Source: Paracoccus sp. MC1862
GTDB lineage: Bacteria; Pseudomonadota; Alphaproteobacteria; Rhodobacterales; Rhodobacteraceae
Reading direction: 5' to 3'
Length of the DNA stretch: 64,000 bases
Assembly: GCF_016617715.1 (NCBI RefSeq)
Contig: NZ_CP067225.1
Location: 558,001 to 622,000 of the forward strand
The translations under genes were made by a program, and so were the position numbers. Shown here piece by piece: positions 5,617 through 45,107 of the stretch; within the stretch, counting starts at the first letter, position 1, and each line of letters starts with the position of its first letter. The notes under the pieces are model-generated. The model searched no databases, had not been told where the DNA came from, and worked only from the letters and a program-made list of their open reading frames with translations.

Positions 5617-6043
5617 GAGCATCTAACAAAACCTTCTGATCTGGTTGAGGCAGATGAGGGCGCAGCCGAGGATTACGAAGGCCTCGTGAATGTCGGCGCG
5701 TCGCTCATAGCGGATAGTCAGACGGCGGAAGCGGTTGAGCCAGGCAAGCGTTCGTTCGACGACCCAGCGGTGGCAGCCCAACCTCTCGCTGCTGTCCACT
5801 GTCCGCCGAGCAATGCGGGGCATGATCGCGCGGGCGCGGCATTCGGACCGGCAACGATGGTTATCGTAAGCCTTGTCGGCGTGGAGCTTGTCGGGGCGCT
5901 TGCGCGGGCGGCCGCGACCGTGGCGCACGCCCGGCACGGCGTCGAGGGTGGGCGCCAGCATCAGGCTGTCATGCCGGTTGGCTGGACTCAGGCGCACCCC
6001 GAGCGGGGTGCCTCTCCGGTCGACCACAAGATGGCGCTTCGTG
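5617..6043 (-). mobile_element. IS5-family element, copy 2, truncated by IS21
   Basis: The C-terminal half of an IS5-family transposase is open on the minus strand from the IS21 boundary to a stop near 5623. It contains VDRRGTPLGVRLSPANRHDS and the WVVERTLAWLNRFRRL block that carries the catalytic Glu of the DDE triad. The terminal repeat GAGCATCTAACAAAACC starts at 5617. The N-terminal half is missing because the element is cut by the IS21 copy at 6044. Only three bases (TAA) separate its end from the end of copy 1. Confidence 0.8.
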
Positions 6044-6116: not shown

Positions 6117-6910
6117 TTAGGCTTGGGTCAAGGCATGGCCGGCCTCCTTGGTTTTCCTGGCTGCTGCGGCTGAGCTTGCCTTGAAGCGGAAGCTGTCGTT
6201 TCCGGTCTCCAGGATGTGGCAGCGGTGGGTGAGGCGATCGAGCAGCGCGGTGGTCATTTTGGCATCGCCGAAGACGGTGGCCCATTCGCTGAAGCTCAGG
6301 TTGGTGGTGATGACAACGCTGGTGCGCTCATAGAGCTTGCTCAGAAGGTGGAAGAGCAGCGCACCGCCTGAAGCGCTGAACGGCAAGTAGCCCAGTTCGT
6401 CCAGGATCACGAGATCGAGCCGGGTCAATCCCTCCGCGATCTGGCCCGCCTTGCCCTTGGTTTTCTCCTGCTCGAGGGCATTGACGAGTTCGATGGTGGA
6501 GAAGAAGCGGACCTTCCGGCGGTGGTGTTCGATGGCCTGGATGCCCAGGGCGGTTGCGACATGGGTCTTGCCGGTGCCCGGCCCGCCGATCAGCACGACA
6601 TTCTGCGCGCCGTCGATGAACTCGCAGCGGTGGAGCTGGCGCACCGTGACCTCGTTGATCTCGCTGGCAGCGAAGTCGAAGCCCGAGAGATCCTTGTAGG
6701 CCGGGAAGCGCGCGGCCTTCATGTGATAGGCAATGGAGCGCACTTCGCGTTCCGCCAGTTCGGCCTTCAGCAGCTGGGACAGGATCGGCACGGCTGTCTC
6801 GAATGCCGGCGCCCCTGTTCGATCAGGTCGGTGACGGCCTGGGCCATGCCGTGCATCTTCAGGCTGCGGAGCATGATGACGATGGCGCCGCTGGCGGGAT
6901 CATGACGCAT
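6117..6910 (-). pseudogene. istB: IstB-like ATPase of IS21, one frameshift
   Basis: IstB is the AAA+ helper ATPase of IS21 transposition. The intact part has Walker [12 protein letters not shown], Walker [13 protein letters not shown] and the family C-terminus. The true start is ATG 6910 (MRHDPASG), which overlaps the istA stop. The frame breaks near 6812-6815, where four C stand in the plus strand and five are needed to join IEQG to [14 protein letters not shown] later internal ATG leaves a shortened, still partly open frame. Either a real mutation or a homopolymer base-calling error is possible. Confidence 0.85.
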
Positions 6911-8439
6911 GGCGGTCTCCGATCTGCGCCCGCAGGTCGTCATAGCGTTCGACATTGGCCTTCGGCTCATGGCGCAGGATCAGCGCCTCCGGTGTGTCGA
7001 TGTTCGGGCCGCCGGTCGTCTTGCCATCGATCAGCCTGTGCAGGAGATTCAACACATGGGTCTTGGTCGCGACGCCTTCGGCCAGGGCCATTTCCACAGC
7101 AACCAGCACAGCCTGTTCATCATGCTGCAGGACCAGCGCCAGGATATCGACCATCTCGCGATCGCCACCGGGTCGTCGCAGCATCTGGTCCTGCAACTGT
7201 CGGAAGGCCGCGGGCAGTTCCGCGAAGGGCGCACCGTTCCTGAGGGCACCCGGCTTGCGCTGGATGACGGCCAGATAATGCCGCCAGTCATAGATCGTGC
7301 GAGGCGGCAGGTGATGGGACCGCTGGATCACCCGCCCATGTTCGCACAGGATCTGTCCCTCGGCGGCAACCACCAGCCGATCCGGGTAGACCCTGAGGCT
7401 GACAGGACGGTTGGCAAAGGACGCCGGCACGCTGTAGCGGTTGCGCTCGAAGCTGATCAGGCAGGTGGGGTGAGACACGCTTGCTCCGCTCGACGAAGCC
7501 GTCGAAGGCAGGCGGCAGCGGCATCAGCGCGGCCTGTTCTTCGGCCCAGGCGTCGGCGACGGTTCCGGGCAGAACCCCGTGCGGGATCTCGCGCCACAAC
7601 TCCAGGCAGCGCCGTTCCAGCCAGGCGTTCAGCGCCGCCAGGTCAGGAAAGTTCGGCATCGGCTGCCACAAACGAGGCCGGGCATCCTGAACGTTCTTCT
7701 CGACCTGTCCCTTCTCCCATCCCGCGGCAGGATTGCAGAACTCCGGCTCGAAGACATAGTGGTTGGTCATGGCGAGGAAGCGGATGTTGACCTGCCGTTC
7801 CTTGCCGCGGCCAACGCGGTCAACCGCTGTCTTCATGTTATCGTAGATGCCGCGACCCGGCACGCCGCCAAAGACGCGGAACCCGTGCCAATGGGCATCG
7901 AACAGCATCTCGTGGGTTTGCAGCAGATAGGCCCGAACCAGGAAGGCCCGGCTGTGTGCCAGCTTGATGTGGGCGACCTGAAGCTTCGTGCGCTCCCCGC
8001 CCAGAACCGCGTAGTCCTCGCTCCAATCGAACTGGAACGCCTCGCCCGGACGAAAGACCAAGGGGACGAAGGTGCCGCGGCCCGTCGTCTGCTGCTCGCG
8101 CTGCCGGTCCATCCGCCATTGCCGGGCGAAGGCCGCGACCCGGCCGTAGGAGCCGGTGAAGCCGAGCGCCACGAGGTCGGCATGGAGTTGCTTCAGCGTC
8201 CGGCGCTGCTTGCGTGACTTGCCGGCTTCCGTCTTCAGCCACGCCGCCAGCTTCTCGGAAAACGGATCGAGCTTGCTCGGCCGATCAGGCGTCGCGAACC
8301 TCGGCTCGATGGTCCCAGCGCTCAGATACTTCCTGATGGTGTTGCGCGACAGGCCGGTCCGCCGTGCGATCTCCCGGATCGGCAGCTTCTCCCGCAACGC
8401 CATGCGTCGGATGATGTTCAAAAGTCCCATGTGGATCAC
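6900..8439 (-). pseudogene. istA: IstA-like transposase of IS21, one frameshift
   Basis: IstA is the DDE recombinase of IS21. The N-terminal helix-turn-helix (LPIREIARRTGLSRNTIRKYL) and catalytic core (FQFDWSEDYAVLGG; GIYDNMKTAVD) are in one frame from 8439. The C-terminal part (FERNRYSVPASFANRPVSLRVY) is in another. The break is near 7467-7470, a run of four G on the plus strand where three would restore KRVSPTCLISFERN. It ends at 6900 and overlaps the istB start. Full length would be about 510 residues, normal for the family. Confidence 0.85.
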
Positions 8440-8481
8440 TCCATTACCCCCGCCGCGCTCCGCTTTGGGGAAGGTTCACAT

Positions 8482-8541
8482 GGGTCAGTTCTCAGTGGAA
8501 ATTACGCCCCTACCCGGGTCAGTTCCGGGTGGAAATCAACA
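8482..8541 (-). repeat. right end of IS21 with two transposase-binding repeats
   Basis: GGGTCAGTTC begins an inner copy at 8482 and an outer copy at 8516 that ends with AAATCAACA at 8541. These are the inverted counterparts of the left end. Confidence 0.8.
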
Positions 8542-9051
8542 ATCCGCCAGCGCAACGAGATCGAGAGTCGGGCAGTTGAACTGCTCAGTGATCACCCCCA
8601 CTACCAGCTTCTCACGTCAGTGCCTGGCATCGGCCCGATCAATGCGCTAACCATCCTGGCCGAGGCGGGAGACCTGCGCCGCTTCAATCATCACCGGCAA
8701 TTCCTGAAGTTCTGCGGCATGGATCTGGCCACGGTGCAATCCGGTCTGTTCCGCGGCAGAAGCAGGATCTCGAAGTATGGCAATGCCAGATTGCGGCGGA
8801 CGCTCTGGATGGCTGGACAGACCGCCGTGCTCCAGCGGGCCAACAGCTTCCGCGACAAGTTCGAGCGCTACATTGCGCAAGACCGCCATAATCCGGACCT
8901 CCGTCGCAAGGCCTACACCGCCATCGCCGCGAAGATGGCCCGCACCATTCACGCCGTGATCAAATCCGGCGAACCCTATCGTCCCTTCTTCGAGGGGGCG
9001 AGCCCGAGCGGAAGGACCTCTCTCTGGCGAGCCGTGGAGGCAGCGTGCTGA
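8542..9051 (+). pseudogene. C-terminal half of an IS110-family transposase
   Basis: Starting exactly at the IS21 right boundary, an open frame reads the transposase C-terminal domain of IS110 elements: LLTSVPGIGPINALTILAEAG, then FLKFCGMDLATVQSG and YGNARLRRTLWMAGQTAV. The N-terminal DEDD catalytic domain is absent and is not found on the other side of IS21. It is therefore a fragment left by rearrangement, not a gene simply split by IS21. Confidence 0.85.
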
Positions 9052-31865: not shown

Positions 31866-32966
31866 ATGAGCAGACGACCGGGCCGGAACCACCGCCCGGC
31901 TTTCAAGGCGCAGGCAGCGCTGGCCGCCATCAGGGGCAGGAAGACGCTGGCCGGACTGGCCGGGCAGTTCGACGTGCATCCGGACCCAGGCCACGCAGTA
32001 GCGCAGGCAGCGCCTGGACGGCGCCTCCGGGGTGTCCGGGGCGCGGGGGGGCGGCCGCGGTGGATCCGGCATCGGCGGTGGAGGTGAGCACGCTGCACGC
32101 GAAGAGCGGCGAGCTGACGCCGGGGAAGGATTTCTTGTCCGGCGCGCTCGGGCCGGGGCCGGTCTGCTGCCGGGCGCAGGACGATGATCGACCGCGACCA
32201 TGGGCTGGGCGTCAGCCGCAAGGCGAAGGTGCCCGGGATCAGCGGGGGCCGCGCCTGCTACCTGCCGCGGCCTGCCTCGGCCGCCGATCCCGCGCTCATG
32301 CGCCGGATCGACGCACTTCATCCTGAGCATCCCTTCGCGGGCAGCCGGATGCTGAAGGGCCTGTTGCGGGCGGAGGAACACGAACCGGGCCGGCTTCACG
32401 TCTGCCCGCTGAGGAAGGGGATGGCGAGCCCGGCGCTCTGCCGCCCGAACACGTCAAAGCCGGTGCCGGGCCACAAGATCTCTCCTTGTCTGGTGCGCCA
32501 TCCGGCAGTGACGGGGCCAGGCCAGGCCTGGGCAATGGACAATCACCTCCATTCCGATGGCGAGGGCTTTGTCCACCTGACCGCCGTCCTCGGCTGGTTC
32601 AGCCGCAAGGTCCTCGCCCGGCGGCTGGCGATCACGCGGTCACCGGACTTCTGCATCGAGACCCTGAAGGACGCGCTCGGCCGCTCCGGCCGACCGGAGA
32701 TCTTCAACAGCGACCAGGGCTCGCAGTTCACCGGTGTGGCGTTCATCACGGCGCTGAAGAACGCCAGGGTCGCCATCAGCATGGACGGCAGGGGGTCGGC
32801 CCATACGCCGAGGGCGCGGCAACGCCTTCGTCGAGCGGCGCTGGCGGACGGTGAACCGAAGGACCGCGCAGCGAAATACAGAGGAGGTGTCCCGGCGCCC
32901 CTGCGGCAGCGTCTCCGGGACCGGGGCCTCGATCGGCCGCTATGTGGGCTTCTGCAACATGTGTAA
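31866..32966 (+). pseudogene. IS3-family transposase (OrfA and OrfB), degenerate and 3'-truncated
   Basis: OrfA starts MSRRPGRNHRPAFKAQAALAAIRGRKTLAGLAGQFDVHP. OrfB is readable from IDRDHGLGVSRKAK through MRRIDALHPEHPFAGSRMLKGLLR, AWAMDNHLHSDGEGFVHLTAVLGWFSRKVLA and the DDE block EIFNSDQGSQFTGVAF. It stops in GRYVGFCNM, where intact relatives continue with RRPHSSL. The first catalytic Asp region is altered (AMDNHLH for the usual MDITYI). Missing end and frameshifts make it dead. Confidence 0.8.
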
Positions 32967-33220
32967 CCGCCCCGTGCGCAAGAGGGATCTTCGGAGCTGA
33001 TCTTGACGCGGTGTCGGGTGCTGACATGTGTCCGGCCTCTGATGCGGCCTTGCTACACGCCGCGGGCCCGTATGGTGTTCGCGGATCAGGCCCCAAATCA
33101 ACGCCGCGTGCTCGATGGCACTTTGTTGCAGGCTGGTTCCTCTGACCCCGTCTCACGACCGTTGCGCCAAACTGCTCCTTGCCCTCTTCCGCTCCGACGT
33201 CCTCGCGACCGACGGGCGGC

Positions 33221-34249
33221 TTACGCCGCTACGGCCGGAGCCCGGTAGACACCACCCCTGCGCATCAGCGCCCAGACGATGCGCGCCATCTTGTTGGCCA
33301 GTGCCACCCGCACCAGCATTGGCGGCTTGCGCATCAGCATCCCCGCCAGCCAGGTGCCTGGCCGGGCTGCAGCGTGGACATGGCGCTTGATGATGATGCT
33401 GTTGGCGCCGAGGATCAGCAATCGCCTGAGGGACCGTTCGCCCATCTTCGTCGTCGCCCCGAGCCGCTGCTTGCCGCCCGTCGAATGCTGCCGCGGCGTG
33501 AGGCCGAGCCAGGCCGCAAAGTCCCGTGCCCGGCGGAATGTCTCGGGCGGCGGAGCCAGGACCGCGATGGCTGTGGCGATCAGCGGCCCGATGCCGGGCA
33601 CCGTCATCAGACGCCGGGCGACCTCGTTCTCTTTCGCGTGACGGGCGATCTCGACATCGAGCTGTCCGATCTCCGTCTGGAGGTGCCTGAGGGCCGCAAC
33701 CAGCACCGTCAGCGTGGCGATGGCGTCTGCTGGCAGGCCGCTTTCCGGATCCTCGACGATGGCAATCAGCCGCGCGGTGTTGGCCGCACCCTGGGGCACG
33801 ATCTGCCCGAACTCGCCCAGATGCCCGCGCAGGGCATTGATCGCCTGTGTCCGCTGCCGGATCAGAAGCTCGCGCACGCGGAAGACCATCGCGGCTCCCT
33901 GCGTCTCTTCGCTCTTCACGGGCACGAAGCGCATCGTCGGGCGCTGTGCGGCTTCGCAGATCGCCTCTGCATCAGCAGCATCATTCTTCTGGCGCTTCAC
34001 GAAAGGCTTCACGTAGGCAGGAGGGATCAGGCGCACCTCATGGCCCAGCTTGCTGATCTCTCGGCCCCAGAAATGAGCGCCGCCACAGGCTTCCATTGCC
34101 ACGACGCATGGCGGCAGCTGGCTGAAAAACTCCAGCACGTGATCCCGCCGCAACTTCTTGCGCAGCACCGCCTGGCCAAACGCGTCGGCCCCGTGCGCCT
34201 GAAACACATGCTTCGCCAGATCGAGCCCGATCGTAGTAATCTTCGACAT
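33221..34249 (-). CDS. IS110-family transposase, intact, second type
   Basis: A 342-residue transposase with the DEDD domain (TIGLDLAKHVFQAHG; VVAMEACGGAHFWGRE; KNDAADAEAICEAA) and the C-terminal LMTVPGIGPLIATAIAVL/WLGLTPRQHSTGGKQRLG domain. ATG 34249 (MSKITT) is preferred to an upstream ATG because the family start aligns there. No damage is visible. The upstream region resembles that of the other IS110 copy (TTGGC-CAT--GATGCCGT pattern), suggesting related ends. Confidence 0.9.
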   Translation of the reverse strand: MSKITTIGLDLAKHVFQAHGADAFGQAVLRKKLRRDHVLEFFSQLPPCVVAMEACGGAHFWGREISKLGHEVRLIPPAYVKPFVKRQKNDAADAEAICEAAQRPTMRFVPVKSEETQGAAMVFRVRELLIRQRTQAINALRGHLGEFGQIVPQGAANTARLIAIVEDPESGLPADAIATLTVLVAALRHLQTEIGQLDVEIARHAKENEVARRLMTVPGIGPLIATAIAVLAPPPETFRRARDFAAWLGLTPRQHSTGGKQRLGATTKMGERSLRRLLILGANSIIIKRHVHAAARPGTWLAGMLMRKPPMLVRVALANKMARIVWALMRRGGVYRAPAVAA

Positions 34250-34547
34250 GACCGCTCCCCTGTGTGGATCGTCGCAGACCCACCTTGGCACATCGATGCC
34301 GTCGGGGGGCGGTCACATCATCAGCACCAGGCCGCATTCGTCGCCCGGCGGGCAGACGCCTGATCAGCCTGTCTCAGCCAGCCGATGCCAATCCCGGCGG
34401 CGGCGCTACCAGGACGGAGATCCACTTGGCAGCACACCCGACACTGGTCAGACGAAGCAAGCCAGCTCTCCTGAGATTCGGACCTCTTTGACGGGAGCGA
34501 CACTGAAGGGTGCGGGAGATTGCACGCTCCCCTCGCGCGTTAAGATG
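34250..34547. other. spacer between IS110 and the aldehyde dehydrogenase
   Basis: No gene. GGGAG and CTCCC flank eight bases near 34512-34529 and could form a weak terminator hairpin for the dehydrogenase operon arriving on the minus strand. Confidence 0.4.
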
Positions 34548-36080
34548 TCAGGCGGGCGAGTAGCTGAAGCTCATCGTCGGCGTTGCGGATGTCTCGACCC
34601 AGACGCTTTTCGTCACCGAATAGGCTTTCAGGGCCTCGCGACCCGAAGACCTGCCGTAGCCGCTCTTGCGGAAGCCGCCGAAGGGCGACATGACATTGAT
34701 CGTCTTGTAGGAGTTGATCCAGAATGTCCCGGCCCGAACCTTGCCGGCGATCCGGTGGGCGCGGCCCACATCCTGGGTCCAGACTGCGCCGGCCAAACCG
34801 TAGTTCGTAGCATTGGCGATCGCCACGGCTTCGTCCTCGTCCCCGAACGAAGTGACGCCGACCACCGGGCCGAAGACCTCCTCGTTGGCGATCTCCATGT
34901 CTCGCCTGACCTCGTCTATCACGGTCGGTGCGTAGAAATACCCCTCGGGGAACGCCTCCGGGCGCTCTCCTCCGGTGATGATCCGGCCTCCCTCGGCCGC
35001 GGCGCGACGCACCATCAAGCTGACCTTCTCGAACTGGCGCAGGTTGTTGATTGGCCCCATCAGGGCCGTGCGGTCAAGCGGCATGCCGACCGGAATGCGG
35101 GTGGTCGCCTCCGCATAGCGGCGCATGAACTCGGCGTGGATGTTCCGGTGCACCAGCAGACGCGAGCCGGCGACGCAGCTCTGCCCGGCGCCGCCGAAGA
35201 TCGCGGCCTGAGAGCCGACGATCGCGCGGTTCAGATCGGCGTCGTCGAAGATGATGTTGGCCGACTTGCCGCCGAGTTCGAGGATGCAGGGCACGATGTT
35301 GCGAGCGGCTGTCTCGGCGATCTTCGCGCCTGCCGCGGCCGAACCCACGAAGACCACCAGCCGCGTCTCGGGATGACTGATCGCATACTGGCCCGCGGTC
35401 GGACCCGCGCCGGCGATGACGTTCACCAGGCCGCGCGGCGCGCCGGCCTTCTCACAAAGGACCCCGATGACCAGCGAGCTGTGCGGCGTCAGCTCGGACG
35501 GCTTGAGGATCACGCCGTTGCCCGCACAGATCGCGGGGGCGACCTGCCAGCCGGCCGTGAAAAGCGGCGCGTTCCACGGCGTGATCTGGACCACGACGCC
35601 ATAAGGCTCAGGTCGGGTGTAATTCAGATGTGTGGTCGGGACCGGAATCACTTCGCCATGCAGCTTGTCGCACCAGCCCGCGTAATATTCGAACATCTCG
35701 GCCACCCGGATGACCTCGCCAGAGATGTCGCGGATCAGCCGTCCGGCAGAAATTGCCTCCAGTTCGGCAATCGCCTCCGCGTTTTCGCGCAGAAGTTGGC
35801 CGATGCGGAACATGATCCGCCCACGCTCAGAGGCGGTCTTGGCCCACCATTCGGCCTGGGCCTGGACGGCAGCCGCGGCTGCCGCATCGATGACGTTGGC
35901 GCCCGCATCGGCATAGGTATCCGCCAACTTGCCGGTGGCGGGATCGTAGAGCTCGATCGAATCGCCGTCGCCCTTCTGTGCCTCGCCGCCGACAAAGCTT
36001 GCGAGTCCATCGAAGCCGCAAAGCTGCTTCATCAACTGTGCGACGCGGGCGGCAGTGTCGAATTCGGGAACGGTGTTCAT
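34548..36080 (-). CDS. aldehyde dehydrogenase family protein
   Basis: A 510-residue NAD(P)-dependent aldehyde dehydrogenase. It has the nucleotide-binding ITPWNAPLF and KPSELTPHSS (about 170-200), catalytic Glu in LELGGKSANII and catalytic Cys in FGGAGQSCVAGSRL (about 305), plus the C-terminal PFGGFRKSGYGR. It oxidises an aldehyde to an acid in the cytoplasm; the substrate is unknown. ATG 36080 lies one base after the stop of the upstream dehydrogenase, so the two are one operon. That operon sits downstream of a LysR regulator. Confidence 0.92.
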   Translation of the reverse strand: MNTVPEFDTAARVAQLMKQLCGFDGLASFVGGEAQKGDGDSIELYDPATGKLADTYADAGANVIDAAAAAAVQAQAEWWAKTASERGRIMFRIGQLLRENAEAIAELEAISAGRLIRDISGEVIRVAEMFEYYAGWCDKLHGEVIPVPTTHLNYTRPEPYGVVVQITPWNAPLFTAGWQVAPAICAGNGVILKPSELTPHSSLVIGVLCEKAGAPRGLVNVIAGAGPTAGQYAISHPETRLVVFVGSAAAGAKIAETAARNIVPCILELGGKSANIIFDDADLNRAIVGSQAAIFGGAGQSCVAGSRLLVHRNIHAEFMRRYAEATTRIPVGMPLDRTALMGPINNLRQFEKVSLMVRRAAAEGGRIITGGERPEAFPEGYFYAPTVIDEVRRDMEIANEEVFGPVVGVTSFGDEDEAVAIANATNYGLAGAVWTQDVGRAHRIAGKVRAGTFWINSYKTINVMSPFGGFRKSGYGRSSGREALKAYSVTKSVWVETSATPTMSFSYSPA

Positions 36081-36081
36081 G

Positions 36082-36984
36082 TCAGTGCGTCTCCGCCTTG
36101 GTGCGCTGGCCGAGTGCGGGATCGCCCAGCCTGGTGAAATCCTCGTCATTGGCGATGCCGGATGCGTCCTCGGCCCAGATCTCCTGAGCCAGCTTCGCCA
36201 TCGGCAGGTCGGCTCCGACCTTGCCGGCCAGGTCGAGGGCCAGACGCACGTCCTTGCGCATCAATCCCGCCGAGAAGCCACTGCAGAACGACCCGGAGAG
36301 AACCCAATTCGGGAAATGCACCTCGGACAGCATCGAGCGTCCAGACGCCGCATTGACCACTCGCAGCGCATCGGCGGCGCCGACGCCGCTCGCCTCGGCC
36401 AGGCGCAGCCCCTCGGCAGTGGTCAGCATGTGGCAGGCAACCAGCATGTTGTTCACGAGCTTGGCGACATTCCCCGCGCCACTGCCACCGACATGGAGGA
36501 TCTTCGTCCCCATAGCCTCGAAATGGGGCAGCGCCTCGCGGAAATGTGCCTCGTCTCCCCCGACCATGAACGACAGTTGGCCGCTTGCAGAGCCGCTCGG
36601 ACCGCCGCTGACGGGCGCGTCCAGAAATCCGTGTCCACGCGCGCCCAGCGCCTCAGCCAGATCGCGGCTGACCTGCGGCTCTGAAGTGGAGGTGTCGATG
36701 ATGATCCTGAAAGCCATGTCGTCGGTCAGGAGCCCGGAGTTGTCGATCACGCTTCGCACGTGCTGCGCGGCAGGCAACGAGAAGATGATGACCCGGCTAT
36801 TGCGGAACACCTCGGCCGGGGACTCTACCACCGTTAGTCCGGCTTTGGCCGCCTTGGCGCGACGGGCGGGATCGAGATCGAAGCCGATGACGTCAAAGCC
36901 CTTGCCAATCAAGGTCTTGCCCATGGGCAGACCCATTGCACCAAGTCCGATCATGCCGGTGCGCAATGCGTCATGTGTGGTCAT
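36082..36984 (-). CDS. 3-hydroxyisobutyrate dehydrogenase-family oxidoreductase
   Basis: A 300-residue beta-hydroxyacid dehydrogenase. It has the N-terminal Rossmann motif GMIGLGAMGLPMGKTLIGKG (about 9-28), the substrate loop DAPVSGGPSGSASGQLSFMVGG (about 119-140) and the catalytic Lys in GSGAGNVAKLVNNML (about 170). It would oxidise a beta-hydroxyacid to a semialdehyde, which the adjacent aldehyde dehydrogenase could take further. ATG 36984 lies 114 bases from the LysR stop; a dyad identical in core to one before the divergent transporter operon lies in that gap. Confidence 0.9.
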   Translation of the reverse strand: MTTHDALRTGMIGLGAMGLPMGKTLIGKGFDVIGFDLDPARRAKAAKAGLTVVESPAEVFRNSRVIIFSLPAAQHVRSVIDNSGLLTDDMAFRIIIDTSTSEPQVSRDLAEALGARGHGFLDAPVSGGPSGSASGQLSFMVGGDEAHFREALPHFEAMGTKILHVGGSGAGNVAKLVNNMLVACHMLTTAEGLRLAEASGVGAADALRVVNAASGRSMLSEVHFPNWVLSGSFCSGFSAGLMRKDVRLALDLAGKVGADLPMAKLAQEIWAEDASGIANDEDFTRLGDPALGQRTKAETH

Positions 36985-37089
36985 GCGTGCTTCCCTGCGG
37001 TTCGTGGCGGCCGCAGCATGCGCAGCCGCCTGTCGTGCCATCCTATCCTTAAGGATCACGCGGCGTGCAGAACACGAGCCGCGCACGCC

Positions 37090-37110
37090 GCGTTGCCCTC
37101 AGGGCAACGC
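37090..37110. promoter_or_regulatory. LysR-type operator candidate upstream of the dehydrogenase operon
   Basis: GCGTTGCCC, spacer TCA, GGGCAACGC is a perfect dyad with nine-base arms. The core contains T-N11-A, the general LysR-box rule. It overlaps the stop codon of the LysR gene and lies about 106 bases before the dehydrogenase start. The six-base core arms recur at 38214-38228. Confidence 0.65.
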
Positions 37111-38019
37111 CGCCGGCGAGAAGGCCGACATGCGGGCAGCAAGCAGCGTGGCCACGGCGTCAACTGATCTCGGCAGCCGCCGCCGCGCACGTACGATCGC
37201 ATGGGCGCTTGCACTGAGCAGCAGCGGCTCATCGACATCGAGGATCTTCAGCTCGCCCCGCGCCTCTTGGATGGTGGCCGAGAAGCGAGGCAGGAACGTC
37301 ACGCCGAGGCCGGCCGAAACGAAGCGGATCAAGAGGGCAATCGACTCGGTCTCTACAACCGGGTGCAGTGACAAGCCATGATCGCTGGCTGCCCGGGCCA
37401 GCAGCTGATGGATCCCATGACTTTCGTTCAGCAGCGCGAGCGGTTGCTCGAGCACGTCTGCAAGCCACAGTCTGGAGCGGCCGATCAGCGAGGAGGAGAC
37501 CGGTACGATCGCGCAAAGCGGCTGCCGCCCGATCGCCAGCGATCGCGTCCCCGGAAGCAGGATGGGGTTATAAGCGAGAGCGATGTCCACCTGGTCCTGG
37601 ATGACGAGTTCGACCAGCCTGTCGGTGCCAGCAGTGGTGATCTGGTAGCGCAGGTTCGGGTTGGTGCTCATCAGCGCCGCCAGTCCGTTCTGCATCAGAT
37701 CGGCCGCAAATCCTTCGCCGACGCCCAGCCGGATCACCCGCCGCGTGTCGTTGCGATACTGGCCGATCAGTTCACGGACATAGTCCTGCTCGTTGTGCAG
37801 GTGGTTGGCGTGGTCGAGCAGCAGCTTGCCCGCCTCGGTCAAAAGCATCCCCTGCGAATGTCGTTCGAAAAGCTTCACGCCAAGTCGGATCTCCGCGTCC
37901 GAGATCTTGCGGCTGATCGAGGAGGTCACGACGTTCAGCCGCTCGGAGGCGCGCCGGATAGATCCTTCCTGCGCCACCACGGCGAATTCGCGCAGGAACC
38001 GGTGGTCGAAAGCGTCCAT
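37099..38019 (-). CDS. LysR-family transcriptional regulator
   Basis: A 306-residue regulator. The winged helix-turn-helix occupies residues 1-62 (FLREFAVVAQEGSIRRASERLNVVTSSISRKISDAEIRLGVKLFERH), followed by the linker helix and a periplasmic-binding-like effector domain. ATG 38019 is chosen because the DNA-binding domain starts there; 55 upstream residues in frame look non-coding. It stands between a dehydrogenase operon (same strand) and a divergent membrane operon, and both carry a matching dyad. It probably controls both in response to their substrate. Confidence 0.9.
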   Translation of the reverse strand: MDAFDHRFLREFAVVAQEGSIRRASERLNVVTSSISRKISDAEIRLGVKLFERHSQGMLLTEAGKLLLDHANHLHNEQDYVRELIGQYRNDTRRVIRLGVGEGFAADLMQNGLAALMSTNPNLRYQITTAGTDRLVELVIQDQVDIALAYNPILLPGTRSLAIGRQPLCAIVPVSSSLIGRSRLWLADVLEQPLALLNESHGIHQLLARAASDHGLSLHPVVETESIALLIRFVSAGLGVTFLPRFSATIQEARGELKILDVDEPLLLSASAHAIVRARRRLPRSVDAVATLLAARMSAFSPAALP

Positions 38020-38213
38020 GATCGTCTTGTTCCTCAATTCCCGAACGCGTCCAGACGCTGCCGTTCCTGCAGCAGTGACGCGTGGCGGAAAAGATCTGCG
38101 GCGGCTTCGATGAGCGTTCCGTTGGACATGACTTTGATCCGGTTCGGCGCGACGCGGCAATGATGCGTGCGGCACACGGAGCAAGTCCAGCCGGTCCTAT
38201 AGGTGCGCGAGGA

Positions 38214-38241
38214 TTGCCCGAGGGGCAACACCGCGTTGCCC
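38214..38241. promoter_or_regulatory. LysR-type operator candidate upstream of the DUF3100 operon
   Basis: TTGCCC, spacer GAG, GGGCAA (38214-38228) is a perfect dyad, followed by a third half-site within CCGCGTTGCCC ending at 38241. That eleven-base string also forms the left arm region of the other site. It is about 87 bases before the DUF3100 start. Confidence 0.65.
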
Positions 38242-38314
38242 AGCAGCGTGCTGCCGGGTCATGTGCGAAGCGGGTTAGCCTTCGGCACTTGCATCGATCC
38301 ACGGGAGGGGCTTG

Positions 38315-39142
38315 ATGACCAATGTTTTCTCGCGCGACGCGTTGCCACTGCATCTGCTGGTGCTGGTCATCGTTGTGATTTCCGAATTGATCGGCATCAT
38401 CCGGCTGCCGATCGGGATTGCCACGGTGATCCTCCTGCCGATCCTTTATGCCTTTGCAATCGGGATCGCACTCAATCCGGTCATCAACAAGGCGACACGA
38501 CAGGTTCTCACGGCGCGCTCCAGCAAGATCGCGGGGGCGATGATCATCGTCGCGATCATGCCCTTCATCGCGCGTTTCGGCACCACCGTCGGACCAGCGA
38601 TGGGGGACATCATCGCCGCCGGCCCGGCTCTCATCCTTCAGGAGATCGGCAACCTCGGCACGATCGCTGTCGCATTCCCTGTGGCCGTCTACCTGCTCGG
38701 CATGGGACGGGAAGCGATCGGCGCGTCCTATTCGATCGACCGTGAGCCGAACCTTGCCCTGATCGCCGAGAAATACGGGCTGAACAGCCCCGAAGGCGCC
38801 GGCGCCATGGGTGTCTATGCCACCGGCACGCTGATCGCCACCTTTGTCTTTGCGATCATGCCGCCTCTCATCCATGCACTCGACATCTTCGACGTCCGCG
38901 CGCTGGCGATGGCCTGCGGCGTCGGCTCGGGCTCGATGCTGGCTGCCTGCACCGGCGGCCTCGTCGCAGTGATCCCCGAACAGGAGGAAATCATCCTTGC
39001 GCTGGCCGCGGCCAGCAACATCCTGACCTATGCCACCGGGCTTTATGTCGCCGTATTCGTGGCCTTGCCGCTGACCGAGTGGCTTTACCAGCGCGCCCGT
39101 CCCAACGATCCGGCCAATCCGACCAAGGGAGAGAAAGCATGA
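38315..39142 (+). CDS. DUF3100 multi-pass membrane protein
   Basis: A 275-residue inner-membrane protein with about eight hydrophobic segments (for example LLVLVIVVISELIGIIRLPIG, and VAFPVAVYLLGMG). Its glycine-rich GVGSGSMLAACTGGLVAV loop near 210 fits a transporter. It matches DUF3100 as I know it; the family is uncharacterised. ATG 38315 follows GGGAGGGGC; a TTG one codon earlier is also possible. The stop overlaps the next gene's start, and the operon is divergent from the LysR regulator. Transport of the dehydrogenase substrate is inferred. Confidence 0.8.
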   Translation: MTNVFSRDALPLHLLVLVIVVISELIGIIRLPIGIATVILLPILYAFAIGIALNPVINKATRQVLTARSSKIAGAMIIVAIMPFIARFGTTVGPAMGDIIAAGPALILQEIGNLGTIAVAFPVAVYLLGMGREAIGASYSIDREPNLALIAEKYGLNSPEGAGAMGVYATGTLIATFVFAIMPPLIHALDIFDVRALAMACGVGSGSMLAACTGGLVAVIPEQEEIILALAAASNILTYATGLYVAVFVALPLTEWLYQRARPNDPANPTKGEKA

Positions 39143-39645
39143 CCCAGGCGACCGAGATGCATGACCTAGCGGATGCCATCGCAGATGATGAACGGTCGGA
39201 CATCCCCGTTGGCGACAAGATGGCGATGCTGCTTGTCGCCGGGGTTATCGGGCTGGTGGCGAACTGGGTTGCAACCGGGACCTTACCCGGAGGGGCACTG
39301 CCGGGAATGTTGTTCCTTCTGGTCGGCTCGGCGATCGGGCTGATGCTTGCGCAGGTCATCCGGATCGGCCTTCCGGCAGTGGCTTGGGTGTCGCTGATTG
39401 CGGTGCTCGCAACCATTCCGGGGGTTCCCGGCTCGGCCTGGGTGACGGAAGCCGTCGGAAAGCTGAACTTCCTCGCGCTGGCGACTCCGGCGCTGGCCTA
39501 TGGCGGTCTGGCCCTGACTGCACAGGAGTTCCACATCGCCCGGACCTCTGGCTGGAAGATCGTGATTGTCGCGCTCTGCGTGATGTTCGGGACTTATATC
39601 GGCTCGGTCATCATCGCCCATCTGACCTTGGGGCTGACGGGCTGA
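39139..39645 (+). CDS. membrane protein, partner of DUF3100
   Basis: A 168-residue protein with a polar N-terminus and about five membrane spans. ATG 39139 overlaps the DUF3100 stop (ATGA) after a GGGAGAGAAAG ribosome site, so the two are made in fixed ratio and probably form one complex. The spans are Leu/Ala/Gly-rich, with KLNFLALATPALAYGGLAL near 110-128. I recognise no named domain. An ISNCY element begins about 65 bases downstream. Confidence 0.75.
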   Translation: MTQATEMHDLADAIADDERSDIPVGDKMAMLLVAGVIGLVANWVATGTLPGGALPGMLFLLVGSAIGLMLAQVIRIGLPAVAWVSLIAVLATIPGVPGSAWVTEAVGKLNFLALATPALAYGGLALTAQEFHIARTSGWKIVIVALCVMFGTYIGSVIIAHLTLGLTG

Positions 39646-39709
39646 CGGTCTCCAGATCAAGGCATCCATAAAACCAAGTATTCAAGCCGGCGGTATACGC
39701 GCAAAGCTA

Positions 39710-41270
39710 AAATGTCACCGCTGAGCAAAGCAGGAATGTCACTCTCCCCCGGTTGAAGCATGATCCTCGGGGGACGAACATGGGATGGCTGGTGATGAGC
39801 GAACGCGAGCTGAACCGGATCGAGGTGCTGTCGGAGGTTGGGACTGGCCGGTTGCGGGTTGAAGACGCCGCCGGCCTGCTCGGCCTGACCCGGCGGCAGG
39901 TATTTCGGCTGCTGGCGCGGTTTCGGGCGGATGGCCCGGCCGGGCTGGCCCACCGTGCGCGCGGACGTGCGCCGAACAACGCCCTGTCTGCCCTTCATCG
40001 GGAGCAGGTGCTGGCACTCGTTCGGACGCAGTATGCCGATTTCGGTCCGACGCTTGCGGCCGAGAAGCTGGCCGAGCTGCATGACATCCATATCTCGCAC
40101 GAGACCTTGCGCAAATGGATGATCGAAGACGGTTTATGGGTCTCGCGCAAGCAGCAGCGGGTGCTGCACCAGCCGCGGCTGCGGCGCGAGGCCCTGGGTG
40201 AGCTGGTCCAGATCGACGGCTCGGAGCATCGCTGGTTCGAGGATCGGGGCCCCGCCTGCACGTTGCTGGTGTTCATCGACGATGCGACCGGCCGGCTCAT
40301 GCATCTCCGGTTTGTCGCCTCCGAGAGCACCTTCAGCTATTTCAATGCGCTGGAGGGCTACCTTCAGGAGCACGGCCGGCCCGTGGCCTTCTATTCGGAC
40401 AAGCACAGCGTGTTTCGGGTGAACCGCACCGAGGCGCGCAGCGGCCATGGCATGACGCAATTCGGCCGGGCGCTGAACGAGCTGAACATCGAGATCCTCT
40501 GCGCCAATTCCTCGCAGGCCAAGGGCCGGGTCGAGCGCGCCAATCGCACCCTGCAGGACCGTCTGGTCAAGGAACTGCGGCTTGCCGGGATCGCGGACAT
40601 GGCAGCCGGCAATACGTTCCTGCCCGGCTTCATCGCGGCCTTCAATACCCGCTTCGCCCGCATCCCGCGCCGGTCGGACGATCTGCACCGTCCCCTGAAC
40701 GTCGAGCCGGAGCGGCTCCGCGACATCTTCTGCCTGCGCGACGAACGCCATGTCGGCCAGCAGCTGGCGCTGTCCTACGACAGGAAGCGCATCATCCTCG
40801 AACCGAACCACCTGACGCTCGGCCTGGTCGGCACATACGTCGACACCTACGAGTTCCCGGACGGCCGGCTGGAGATCCGGGCCAGGGGCGTGTCCCTGCC
40901 CTGCCGGATGTTCGACAAGGAGCAGCGCGTCACCCACGCCGCGATCACCGAGAACAAGCGCCTGACCGAGGTGCTGGCCTTCATCCAGACCCAGCAGGAC
41001 CAGGACCCGCCCAGGGCGCGGCGCGTCGGCAAGCAGCGCACCCGCTATGAGCCCAAGGGCACCGTCGGACCTGGTCGCACACCTCTGCTGGTCAAGGCAC
41101 GTCGAGCGCAGGTCGAAGCCAGAACGAACTGAACGCCAGACGGAGCACTGGATCCGACGGCCGCTCAAGGCAGCCGGTCAGGGCTGCGATGGCGGAGGTC
41201 TCCGCCCTGCCCGGCTGCCGGCATCGTGGCGCCCGGTGACATTCCTGAATTGCCAGCAAGGGTGACATTT
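39710..41270 (+). mobile_element. ISNCY-type insertion sequence, apparently intact
   Basis: Both ends carry two spaced copies of the AATGTCAC box in inverted orientation: AAATGTCACC at 39710 and AATGTCAC near 39734 on the left, and GGTGACATTT ending at 41270 with GGTGACATTC near 41235 on the right. One long transposase gene fills the interior. The exact outer base is uncertain by a few positions, and no target duplication could be fixed. Confidence 0.75.
39780..41132 (+). CDS. ISNCY-family transposase
   Basis: A 450-residue DDE transposase. The N-terminal helix-turn-helix is LRVEDAAGLLGLTRRQVFRLLARFRADG (about 21-48). The integrase core begins LVQIDGSEHRWFEDRG with first Asp, then VAFYSDKHSVFRVN with second Asp and SSQAKGRVERANRTLQDRLVKEL with the Glu. 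No frameshift is present. ATG 39780 is chosen for its GGGGGACG ribosome site; ATG 39753 would add nine residues. Confidence 0.9.
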   Translation: MGWLVMSERELNRIEVLSEVGTGRLRVEDAAGLLGLTRRQVFRLLARFRADGPAGLAHRARGRAPNNALSALHREQVLALVRTQYADFGPTLAAEKLAELHDIHISHETLRKWMIEDGLWVSRKQQRVLHQPRLRREALGELVQIDGSEHRWFEDRGPACTLLVFIDDATGRLMHLRFVASESTFSYFNALEGYLQEHGRPVAFYSDKHSVFRVNRTEARSGHGMTQFGRALNELNIEILCANSSQAKGRVERANRTLQDRLVKELRLAGIADMAAGNTFLPGFIAAFNTRFARIPRRSDDLHRPLNVEPERLRDIFCLRDERHVGQQLALSYDRKRIILEPNHLTLGLVGTYVDTYEFPDGRLEIRARGVSLPCRMFDKEQRVTHAAITENKRLTEVLAFIQTQQDQDPPRARRVGKQRTRYEPKGTVGPGRTPLLVKARRAQVEARTN

Positions 41271-41321
41271 CTGGATGGTTGCAACAGACTGTGGTGCCCG
41301 CCGGCTGGCGCGTTATAGGCT

Positions 41322-41480
41322 CTAGTCTCCTACGTGCATGGCGTATTGCTGGCCCTGATGCTCACGCTCCTGCGCAAGCGCGGCTATGCGCCCTGCCGCG
41401 CGCGCATCGGAAAGCGCCTTTTGGTGAGCAAAAGGAATTCCCGCGGCTGCGCCGACGCCCTTGAGGGACAAACTCCTAAC
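41322..41480 (-). pseudogene. possible DEDDh exonuclease C-terminal remnant
   Basis: The minus strand reads LSLKGVGAAAGIPFAHQKALSDARAAGRIAALAQE before a stop at 41322. The His-x-ALxDARAAGRI pattern resembles the third motif of DnaQ-type 3'-5' exonucleases. The rest of the domain is absent, and the frame upstream is not recognisable. It is weak evidence and lies right beside the ISNCY element. Confidence 0.35.
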
Positions 41481-41630
41481 TCGGATGCTTTCTCTGATAA
41501 GACCGAGCGAATTCTTGCCGGAGCCTGTGCGCATGAAGCTGAAAGCTGAGCGCTCTACCGCCCTGCAAGGACGGGCGCTGGGCTTGTCCCTGAACCGCTG
41601 CGACGGTCTGCCGATCCTCCACATTCACGC

Positions 41631-42059: not shown

Positions 42060-44345
42060 CTAGCTGCTCAGCTGGTTGCCGACCGGCAGGCGGCGGATCC
42101 GCTGGCCCGTGGCGGCGAAGATGGCGTTGGTGATGGCAGGCGTCACGGGGGGCAGGCCGGGCTCGCCTACGCCGCCGAGCGGCTGACCATAATCCTCGCC
42201 GCCGACCAGATGAACGTGGATCTCACGCGGGGCGGTATCCATGCGCGGGACCAGGTAGGTGTCGAAGTTGTCCTGCTGTGCCCGTCCTTGCGCGAAGGTG
42301 ATCTGCGAGGTCAGCGCCTGGCCCGAGCCCATGATCACCGCGCCTTCCATCTGGGAACGGATCCGATCGGGATTCACGTGGGGGCCGCAGTCGATGGCGA
42401 GATGGGCAGCGGGGATGCGCACGTTGCCGGCCTCGTCGACCTCGACCTCGACCACCACGGCGACGTAGCTGACGAAGCTGTAATGCGCCGCAAGCCCAAG
42501 TCCGCGCCTCGCGGGCATCTCTCGACCCCAGCCGGCGGCCTCGGTCGCGGTCTCGATCACCCGGCGCAGGCGGCCGGTATCCACCGGATAGCGTGCCGGG
42601 TCCTCTCCATAGTTCCAGACGTCGCCAAGCTCGGTCGGGTCGATCTTCCGCGCGGGGCCGATCACCTCCAGCAGATAGTCGCGGTGGTCGCGGCCCGCCT
42701 CGTGGGCCAGTTCGGCGATGAAGGACTGAATCGCGAAGGCATGCGGGATGTTCGAGACCGAGCGATACCAGCCGATCCGCGTGTGCGCCTGAGCCTTGGG
42801 ATTTTCAGCGCGCACGTTGGGGATGTCGAGCGGCATGTTCGTCAGCCCCATGCCCAACTCGAACGGCAGCTTCTGCATGGGGTCGGGGGCGAAGATCGAC
42901 CCGATGGTCGGCGCCGCCGTGCGGTGAAGCCAAGCGACCGGACGGCCGCTGTCGTCCAGCCCTGCCTCCAGCCGCTCGACGGATACGGTATGGTAGAAGC
43001 TGTGATGCAGGTCGTCGTCGCGCGTCCAGACCACCTTGACCGGCGCCCCGTCCATTTCACGGCTGAGGATCGCGGCCTCGATGGCGAAGTCGGGCTTGGA
43101 CTTGCGGCCGAAACCGCCGCCCAGCAGGGTGACGTTCACGGTGACATTCTCGGGGGGAAGGCCCAGCTTCTCGGCAATGCGCACGCGTGTCACCTGCGGC
43201 GCCTGCACGCAGGCCCAGACCTCGCAGCGGCCGTCCCGGATCATCGCCAGCGCGGCCGGAGGCTCCATCGGCGCCTGCGCCAGATGGGGGATGTAGTATT
43301 CGGCCTCGACCTTGCGCGGCGCCTCTTGCAGCGCTGTCAGGGCGTCACCCTGGTTGCGCACGACCGCGCCGTCGCTGCTGCGCGCGGCCTGTTCCAGTTC
43401 GGCCTTGAAGACCTCGCTGTCATAGGCGCCGTGGGGGCCGTCCTCCCACCGGATATTCAGCACATCGCGCCCACGCATGGCAGCCCAGGTGTTCGTCGCG
43501 ATCACCGCCACGCCACCCAGCGGCTGGAACTCGGAAGGCTGGGGCGGCGGATCGATCATCACGACGCGCTGCACGCCGGGCACCTTCAGCGCGGCCTCGG
43601 CATCATGGCTGACAGCGCGACCGCCGATGACAGGCGGGCGCGCGACCACCGCGAACAGCATGCCCTCGGCCTTTGCATCCATGCCATAGACCGCGGCGCC
43701 GGTGACGATGCCGGGATTGTCGATCAGCCCCACATCGTCGCGGCCAATGTAGCGGAACTTGTCCGGTGACTTCAGCGCCAGCGACTCGCGGACGGGGATC
43801 TCGCCCTCGGCCGCACGCGAGGCCATGTCGCCGTAACCGGCCTGCCGGCCGGAGGCAGCATGGCTGAGAGCATGGTTCTCGGCCGTGACCTCCTCCACCG
43901 GAACGCCCCATTCCGCGGCGGCGGCTTCTCGCAGCATCTGGCGCGCGGCGGCACCGGCACGCCGCATCGGCTCGAAGAAATGCCGCAGGCTGCGCGAACC
44001 GTCAGTATCCTGGTTGCCGAAGGTCGGCTCGTCTGCCGGTGCCTGGGCAACGCGCACCCGGCTCCAGTCCGCCTCCAGTTCATCCGCGACGGCCATGGCG
44101 ATCGAGGTGCGGACCCCCTGTCCCATTTCCGCACGGTGGACCGTGACCGTCACCGTTCCGTCGGGATCGATGGCGACGAAGATGCGCGGATCGTCCCGCC
44201 AGCCATGCGGCATCGCGTCAGCGCCGAACTTCAGCGGCTCCTCCTGCTCCTGCGCCAGGGAAGGCAGGCCCAGCGAGATCACCAGCGCGCCTGCCCCCAG
44301 TCCCAGCAGGACTGCACGCCGGCTGACATTTTCCAGAGCGGCCAT
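42060..44345 (-). CDS. molybdenum hydroxylase large subunit (isoquinoline 1-oxidoreductase/aldehyde oxidase type)
   Basis: A 761-residue molybdopterin-binding subunit of the xanthine-dehydrogenase family, closest in layout to IorB-type periplasmic enzymes. It begins with a twin-arginine leader ([24 protein letters not shown]) and has [23 protein letters not shown] near 75. Cofactor loops [35 protein letters not shown] and a final GLPPV-type end follow. It would hydroxylate an aldehyde or N-heterocycle with water as oxygen source. The small 2Fe-2S subunit lies two bases upstream. No FAD subunit or XdhC-like chaperone is seen nearby. Confidence 0.9.
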
Positions 44346-44347
44346 GG

Positions 44348-44800
44348 TCAAGCTCCCTGCTCGGCTGCACGTTTGATCGCGGCGCGGATGCGGGGATAGG
44401 TGCCGCAGCGGCAGATGTTCTGGCTCATCGCGGAGTCGATGTCGGCATCGGTCGGCTCCGGCGTTTTGGCCAGAAGCGCCGCGGCCTGCATGATCTGCCC
44501 GGCTTGGCAGTAGCCGCATTGCGCGACGTTCAGTTCCTGCCATGCCGCCTGCACCGGATGGGTCCCGTCAGGGGACAGGCCTTCGATGGTGATCACTTGA
44601 GCCCCCTCGGCAACGTTCATCGGGGTGACGCAGGAAAAGCTGGCAACCCCGTCGATATGGACGACGCAGGCGCCGCACAGCCCGGCACCACAGCCGTATT
44701 TCGCGCCGGTGAGCCCCAGCTCGTCGCGCAGATACCACAGAAGCGGCATTTCGGGGTCGCCGTCGAAACTGCGCGCCTGCCCGTTTACAATAAAATCCAT
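44348..44800 (-). CDS. 2Fe-2S subunit of the molybdenum hydroxylase
   Basis: A 150-residue ferredoxin-type subunit (IorA/CoxS type). The first cluster ligands are in [17 protein letters not shown] (about 35-51) with a further Cys in FSCVTP. The second cluster is in [11 protein letters not shown] (about 94-104) and [15 protein letters not shown] (about 127-141). Start 44800 (MDFIVNG) fits the family; ATG 44821 would add seven residues. It carries electrons from the molybdenum centre and is likely co-exported with the Tat-dependent large subunit. Confidence 0.93.
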
Positions 44801-45107
44801 GACGTTTTCTCTTTCCGGCACGTGTGGCTGGCTGAGCCCGCCTGTCAGTCCACGCTGGGCGTCCTGCCATGGCCTTGCCTGCCAAGAGCATCGAGCAACC
44901 TAGTGAAACGCAGGAGACTACAGGATGTTCCCGGGTCGGGGTCCAGAATTGATACCTCCTGAGCAGCGTACCTCATCCGGCGAACTGCTCCGCGCCAAGG
45001 GCAAGCTCTCGGTTATTCATCGCTCTCCAAGCAGGCGAGCAACGGGATCAAAATGATCGTGTCGGAGGAAGCGTTTTCCATTTAACGCGGCCTGCACGAG
45101 GACGTGA
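44801..45107. other. upstream region of the hydroxylase operon; no gene
   Basis: No gene is recognised. The left half presumably holds the hydroxylase promoter. From about 45090 the sequence becomes recognisable as DnaE2 coding. Confidence 0.4.

Follow-up and report, generated by a model that had tools for sequence, protein, structure and literature searches.

In the 64,000-nt stretch of Paracoccus sp. MC1862 DNA analyzed here (the window), a gene for a LysR-type regulator separates two gene pairs: on its own strand, genes for a HIBADH-family β-hydroxyacid dehydrogenase (HIBADH) and an aldehyde dehydrogenase (ALDH), and on the opposite strand, genes for a DUF3100 membrane protein and a small membrane partner. 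Copies of a perfect dyad, TTGCCC-N3-GGGCAA, lie on both sides of lysR, and the dyad recurs at the heads of the same genes in relatives. Sequence comparison gives good support to a single LysR regulon over HIBADH–ALDH and DUF3100–partner; it would be a regulon of a known kind, the new part being the predicted role of DUF3100. The ALDH gene belongs to the same gene run, though it lies outside the range first noted (36082..39645). The features, by window position, are as follows.

34548..36083, − strand: ALDH, 511 aa (Pfam Aldedh, 2.7e-161)
36082..36984, − strand: HIBADH-family β-hydroxyacid dehydrogenase, candidate L-serine 3-dehydrogenase (NAD_binding_2 and NAD_binding_11; overlaps the ALDH start)
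37082..37087, − strand: putative third half-site of operator 1, CGTGCG (family form Y-GT-N-C-S), on the HIBADH side, from aligned sites
37092..37108, − strand: putative operator 1, GTTGC-N7-GCAAC, arms out to 37090-37110, from sequence pattern and family alignment
37099..38022, − strand: LysR-type regulator, 307 aa (HTH_1, 4.2e-17; LysR_substrate, 2.7e-37)
38213..38229, + strand: putative operator 2 before DUF3100, ATTGC-N7-GCAAC, one mismatch to the family consensus
38234..38240, + strand: putative third half-site of operator 2, CGTTGCC, with identical letters in the sister locus L006
38315..39142, + strand: DUF3100 membrane protein, 275 aa, predicted transporter subunit (PF11299, 1.8e-87)
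39139..39645, + strand: small partner membrane protein, 168 aa (4-base overlap with DUF3100; no Pfam or NCBIfam family)

Both dyads lie where the original prediction had placed them, at 37093-37107 and 38214-38228, and the nine-base arms claimed at 37090-37110 can be read straight from the letters, GCGTTGCCC-TCA-GGGCAACGC. Their distances from the start codons, given there as about 106 and 87 bases, come to 107 nt between the 17-bp dyad and the HIBADH ATG at 36984 (the likeliest start, picked by eye, with a Shine-Dalgarno-like AGGGAAG) and 85-86 nt to the DUF3100 ATG at 38315. Operator 1 overlaps the lysR stop codon (37099-37101), a point absent from the original prediction, and therefore sits where lysR meets HIBADH on their shared strand. 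The exact dyad is rare rather than scattered at random: 100 shuffles of the window produced none, and the whole 3.63 Mb genome holds 2 sites, both at this locus, against 0 for the reversed control pattern. Only this exact form is informative, since allowing up to two mismatches gives 5 window matches against 5.3 expected. The genome has 4 matches to the broader family form GTTGC-N7-GCAAC and 2 to its reversed control, operator 1 being the only one of the 4 at the locus; operator 2 departs from it at the first base, with its TTGCCC-N3-GGGCAA core perfect.

The gene set recurs in related genomes, where the original prediction had proposed to look for the same gene order. A LysR scan of the named genome collection returned 9 loci: 8 relatives and one Stenotrophomonas match at 29% identity. 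The relatives' LysR proteins are 84% identical in a Paracoccus metagenome-assembled genome and 53-56% identical in five Nitratireductor, P. alkanivorans, and P. onchidii, and HIBADH, ALDH, DUF3100, and partner are present in 8/8. Seven of the eight show the co-directional order M20-LysR-HIBADH-ALDH-DUF3100-partner, where M20 denotes an M20-type amidase; the metagenome-assembled genome is divergent like the window and, like it, lacks M20. The gene set is patchy in distribution: counting the window's own genome each time, its LysR is found at 1e-50 in 13/125 genomes of the genus and at 1e-65 in 2/385 genomes of the class sample, and DUF3100 in 3/248 genomes of the family and 7/372 of the class (6 above cut-off).

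The intergenic regions of relatives generalize the dyad to GTTGC-N7-GCAAC, with a T-N11-A core. Sites up to 300 nt upstream were counted across 37 loci, with one gene per family and letter shuffles as background; many of the loci compared are close relatives. Upstream of HIBADH, the exact form is found in 22/27 loci and a form with at most one mismatch in 25/27 (shuffles, 2/4,023 and 54/4,023); upstream of DUF3100, the corresponding counts are 13/36 and 16/36 (shuffles, 0/4,032 and 46/4,032). Control genes have neither an exact nor a one-mismatch site (ALDH 0/27, partner 0/36, M20 0/29), and LysR has an exact site in 2/27 and, with one mismatch allowed, in 3/27 (window, L043, L051). The dyad is thus kept beside orthologues, as the original prediction required. 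A one-mismatch HIBADH match in L057 was taken as chance (246 nt off, with the gene inside a run); L016, uncounted there, carries a one-mismatch site. Dropped before these counts were L014 (unrelated), L049 (DUF3100 match below cut-off), L030, L032, and L034 (the same places as L006, L013, and L009), and the short stretches L001-L005, L017-L029, L042, and L044-L048, whose places are covered at greater length under other ids or in the window.

The loci without a dyad before DUF3100 follow a pattern. Of these 20 genes, 13 stand behind ALDH in a run that begins with the HIBADH dyad (L007-L013, L015, L031, L033, L035-L037), and the other 7 lack a close LysR of this group next to them (L054, L058, L059, L060, L063-L065; L059 has a 33% LysR 3 kb off). 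The dyad precedes DUF3100 mainly where DUF3100 heads its run. In Psychrobacter L059, no dyad appears at 0-1 mismatches, and a degenerate GTTGC-N7-AGAAC was seen by eye before HIBADH. Genome G628 has LysR-HIBADH-ALDH with a dyad 7 kb from DUF3100-partner-L-serine ammonia-lyase-M20 with a dyad of its own. In all, 20 of 70 matching plasmid records, author-picked, were examined, one lacking annotation. Plasmid loci L066-L074 were counted separately: exact dyads occur in L072 and L074, a dyad with one mismatch separates LysR from HIBADH in L068, and L066, L067, L069, L070, L071, and L073 show none at gene heads. In A. leguminum L072, a dyad lies ~70 nt before M20 and leads into a run ending in L-serine ammonia-lyase; Klebsiella plasmid L062 carries an exact dyad immediately past lysR, ~720 nt upstream of the annotated start of M20. 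Two of the four exact dyads of L072 fall off the expected places, at 5994 and 6312 (one inside the partner part of a fused gene, one before an SMP-30 family gene).

Layouts differ among loci. In 13/27 HIBADH loci, the order is M20-LysR-HIBADH-ALDH-DUF3100-partner, with DUF3100 following the dehydrogenases in one run behind a single dyad; in 8/27, DUF3100-partner comes first and LysR-HIBADH-ALDH follows, with M20 between them in 7 and not in L016; and 3/27 are divergent (window, L006, L051). The others are L057 (DUF3100-partner-HIBADH-ALDH-LysR), L059 (HIBADH-ALDH-M20-DUF3100-partner), and L043, which lacks DUF3100. The window's divergent, two-dyad form is probably a rearrangement of the co-directional run.

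Site architecture was compared in 42 aligned sites (25 HIBADH, 16 DUF3100, 1 M20/LysR; the L057 HIBADH match was dropped). Because these were picked at no more than one mismatch, their fixed arms are partly a product of selection. A third half-site, found on the gene side only, is independent of that selection. HIBADH sites read GCAAC-R-C-N2-Y-GT-N-C-S, with GT at +23/+24 in 25/25, and GT stands at the same place in 10/16 DUF3100 sites; the extra TTGCCC half-site that the original prediction had pointed out at the second dyad is this element, now with a fixed spacing. A CTA trinucleotide also holds a fixed place ~12 bases past the third half-site and ~22 bases beyond the dyad (before HIBADH, C in 24/25, T in 25/25, A in 20/25), for which a promoter element and a further half-site are candidate readings. 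The extended pattern TTGC-N7-GCAAC-R-C-N2-Y-GT has 20 sites in 18 chosen genomes, against 3 for the reversed control, and 19/20 lie within this gene set. It is absent from 4/18 genomes (G282, G344, G150, G635) because their sites deviate. The lone site elsewhere, G315:C1:913487, was taken as chance; it lies at the edge of an open reading frame without a Pfam match.

Regulator type and site appear to go together. Among 34 aligned LysR proteins, S-R is present in the recognition helix in 28/28 from dyad loci (L016 and L031 with one-mismatch sites only). Six have no assigned exact dyad, one of them the second LysR of L050: the recognition helix differs in 4, and the 2 that keep S-R (L059, L068) come with degenerate sites, at 2 and 1 mismatches. 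LysR regulators commonly combine a recognition site, a T-N11-A dyad, with an activation half-site near the promoter, and this locus resembles them in the position of the regulator gene beside its putative targets, the T-N11-A core, and the gene-side third half-site. The assignment to LysR-type T-N11-A sites made in the original prediction, and the extension of one regulon to both operons, thus gain support from a dyad that is conserved before HIBADH and DUF3100 and has only 2 sites in the genome. The window LysR has the expected domains, an N-terminal HTH_1 and LysR_substrate, but differs from known LysR types in reaching no cut-off among the best 25 of its 52 NCBIfam models, where the TdcA model NF007667 is absent, and in having no PDB match at 1e-15.

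TdcA, a LysR activator of threonine/serine degradation, offers a contrast. On an E. coli plasmid, a TdcA-equivalog LysR (447.3 against a cut-off of 308) adjoins DUF3100-partner-M20, and the neighboring regulator is so annotated in Salmonella and Hafnia; unlike the window type, it has another recognition helix and no such dyad at gene heads. The enteric plasmid loci L063, L066, and L067, in which DUF3100-partner-M20 adjoins a TdcA-type LysR and the gene heads lack this dyad, would represent another way of regulating the same core.

Two other accounts of the dyads were weighed against operator function. That another regulator binds them, with LysR a bystander, is very unlikely: dyad presence tracks this LysR group across differing layouts, and the regulators without an exact dyad are those with a changed recognition helix or a degenerate site. 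We give slightly less credence still to the idea that 37090-37110 is an RNA hairpin, acting as terminator or attenuator where lysR ends, for which its overlap with the stop codon and an RNA fold of -26.9 kcal/mol (z -2.77) would speak. No T-run follows the dyad, however, a second copy of the dyad precedes DUF3100 beyond the other end of lysR, many relatives leave the inner N7 unpaired, and the third half-site is kept on the gene side only; Rfam gave nothing in 33000-41500. The fixed arm letters are no argument here, since the sites were selected at no more than one mismatch.

The original prediction also assigned DUF3100 and its partner a transport role, and the support for this is indirect. 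DUF3100 passes its curated Pfam cut-off by a wide span (293.1 bits against 27), and a simple scan finds 7 hydrophobic segments in DUF3100 and 4 in the partner, marking a multipass membrane protein linked to catabolic genes. The partner is beside or fused to DUF3100 in 36/36 loci and in 9/9 of the later plasmid loci, with fusions in six (L054, L059, L062, L068, L072, L073), and DUF3100 shares one gene run with the enzymes in 13/27. In L043 (genome G722, with no DUF3100 match at all), a LivK-type binding protein of the branched-chain-amino-acid type (7640-8857) takes DUF3100's place beyond lysR, opposite HIBADH, and exact dyads stand at 6448 and 7569; such a replacement is expected if DUF3100 is an importer. 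The only confident family match of DUF3100 members is to DUF3100 itself, the partner has none, and no known transporter family was matched with confidence; a weak partner match to Cons_hypoth698 (E 0.041) appeared in 1/17 members only. A DUF3100 structure model from 9 sequences reached pLDDT 44, and an internal duplication between DUF3100 and partner found no support.

Together, these observations make a LysR regulon with a DUF3100 importer the probable explanation of the locus. The two dyads would be operators for the LysR encoded between them, each consisting of a GTTGC-N7-GCAAC dyad and a weaker gene-side third half-site, like LysR recognition and activation sites. Inducer-bound LysR would switch on HIBADH–ALDH in one direction and DUF3100–partner, forming a secondary importer, in the other. 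The imported compound would most likely be a hydroxy-amino acid with an N-acyl group, for instance an N-acyl-serine, although we hold this part tentatively. In relatives, the M20 aminoacylase would strip the acyl group; the HIBADH-family enzyme would then oxidize the β-hydroxyl, taking serine to aminomalonate semialdehyde and, with loss of CO2, aminoacetaldehyde, which ALDH would oxidize to glycine.

This substrate assignment draws on the M20 neighbors, the serine/threonine enzymes, and HIBADH's PDB neighbors. By tblastn, an M20-type amidase lies near DUF3100 in 29/36 loci, and M20 or amidohydrolase neighbors extend to Fusobacterium, Leuconostoc, and Haladaptatus. The 7 loci without M20 are the window, L006, L016, L054, L057, L060, and L065; a beta-aspartyl-peptidase-like protein occurs in L016, a DoeB-like protein in L060, and an annotated amidohydrolase in L065, and no amidase-type substitute was seen at the window locus, L006, L054, or L057. 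In the nine later plasmid loci, no such enzyme was seen in L068, and L073 has an annotated M14 protein. L-serine ammonia-lyase is found in L050, L062, and L072, a threonine-dehydratase-like protein with a Rid protein in Sulfitobacter L060, and tdh with glycine C-acetyltransferase in Psychrobacter L059; Variovorax L073 has ACC deaminase in place of serine/threonine enzymes. The best PDB matches of HIBADH are 3cky (162.4 bits), 3w6u, 3w6z, and 3obb (152.8 bits), of which we take 3w6u to be a Pyrobaculum L-serine dehydrogenase. The window enzyme belongs to the same HIBADH family as the NAD-dependent L-serine dehydrogenase of PA0743 type (3obb/3q3c) but differs in having 3cky as its top match, and its serine activity is putative. 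The 3q3c entry is PA0743, termed L-serine dehydrogenase in excerpts from PMC3642240.

Several observations weigh against this reading. The top match of HIBADH, 3cky, is 2-hydroxymethylglutarate dehydrogenase; the enzyme misses the 3-hydroxyisobutyrate equivalog TIGR01692 (221.3 bits against a cut-off of 291.6), and none of the 12 NCBIfam models that it matches is a serine dehydrogenase. No M20 gene is present at the window locus or in the sister locus L006, so that another hydrolase or another substrate must be assumed; a candidate hydrolase is a 45% M20 homologue elsewhere in the genome (G000:C1:654778-655920), away from the GTTGC-N7-GCAAC places. Where M20 does occur, it precedes lysR and the dyad in 13 co-directional loci with no dyad of its own, leaving dyad control of M20 unsupported there. 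DUF3100 loci with another LysR or none nearby (E. coli, Salmonella, Hafnia, Bartonella, Haladaptatus, Leuconostoc, Fusobacterium, and others) show no such dyad at gene heads, and the seven named show no serine/threonine enzyme in the stretches shown. The third half-site is missing in 6/16 DUF3100 sites, those of L050-L053, L057, and L062. The Sulfitobacter amidase matches DoeB below cut-off, which leaves room for another N-acetyl substrate. The motif, moreover, was generalized from the same loci that supplied the counts, which makes arm conservation partly circular; the tests that do inform are those on control genes, shuffles, the flanking half-site, and off-site rarity.

Part of this evidence would suit the same regulon with a free short hydroxyacid or diacid, of the 3-hydroxyisobutyrate or 2-hydroxymethylglutarate type, imported by DUF3100 and used without deacylation, close to the hydroxyacid-to-aldehyde-to-acid route of the original prediction. 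The missing M20 in the window and L006, the HIBADH model score and PDB match, and the position of M20 outside demonstrated dyad control in the co-directional loci all favor it. The prevalence of M20 near DUF3100, with amidohydrolases in distant phyla too, and the recurrence of serine/threonine-degrading enzymes argue the other way, and we now regard this route as unlikely. An N-acetyl compound of the ectoine/hydroxyectoine family, again under the same regulon, has a slimmer chance. DoeB and DoeB2 deacetylate N-acetyl-diaminobutyrate in ectoine use: the three M20s tested each have DoeB2 among their three best models, with good scores, DoeB is the only model for the Sulfitobacter amidase, and the Sulfitobacter threonine-dehydratase-like protein has EutB among its matches. 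All these scores lie below the cut-offs, however, whereas two such loci have an L-serine ammonia-lyase that passes its cut-off and a third has one by annotation, and the tdh and glycine C-acetyltransferase genes of Psychrobacter also speak against it. Pantothenate catabolism (pantothenase, pantoate dehydrogenase, aldopantoate dehydrogenase) was dropped without direct test, the serine/threonine neighbors fitting better; the titles listed for pantothenase show nothing on such an operon.

The proposed import of an N-acyl-serine-like compound has a precedent in E. coli AbgT, an importer of p-aminobenzoyl-glutamate that stands beside the M20 hydrolases AbgA/AbgB. The likeness lies in the idea of a membrane importer beside an M20 amidase, and the L007 M20 matches PDB 3io1, an aminobenzoyl-glutamate utilization protein; unlike AbgT, DUF3100 confidently matches its own family only and the partner none. 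Full-text searches, covering few subscription journals, found neither this motif and regulon in print nor a paper on DUF3100 by name or on an operon of serine dehydrogenase, aminoacylase, and LysR. A full-text search for serine dehydrogenase with aminoacetaldehyde and aldehyde dehydrogenase found no paper, and one for N-acetylserine with catabolism, transporter, and aminoacylase gave human-metabolite papers only. For ALDH, no model was at cut-off among the best 25 of 41 NCBIfam models.

The locus is flanked on both sides by transposase genes, an IS110-family transposase at 33221-34291 (−) and a likely transposase at 39753-41132 (+; Pfam, HTH domains only), with an integrase-core open reading frame at 32184-32966, and the gene set looks inserted or movable. 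Beyond it, open reading frames at 42060-44821 (−) look by eye like the two subunits, large and 2Fe-2S, of a molybdenum hydroxylase. A Glyoxalase_3 protein recurs near the gene set (L006, 4497-5396; L009, 3766-4860; L043, 2122-3042).

The locus looks like a clear case of a split gene run in which the moved half bears its own operator copy. In its broadest form, the proposal would make DUF3100 and its partner a new two-subunit importer family for N-acyl-serine/threonine conjugates, patchy in bacteria and archaea beside dedicated deacylases; in alpha-proteobacteria, it would fall under a new LysR regulon in which an oxidative serine route (3-dehydrogenase, then aminoacetaldehyde to glycine) replaces serine dehydratase. 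We consider this wider picture rather doubtful. The conserved operator offers a concrete and cheap test, with one regulator and two fragments, and the amidase and serine/threonine enzymes that recur narrow the candidate substrates to a few. The DUF3100 membrane family is scattered over several phyla, and the regulon and its recurring enzymes make the function of that family directly testable.

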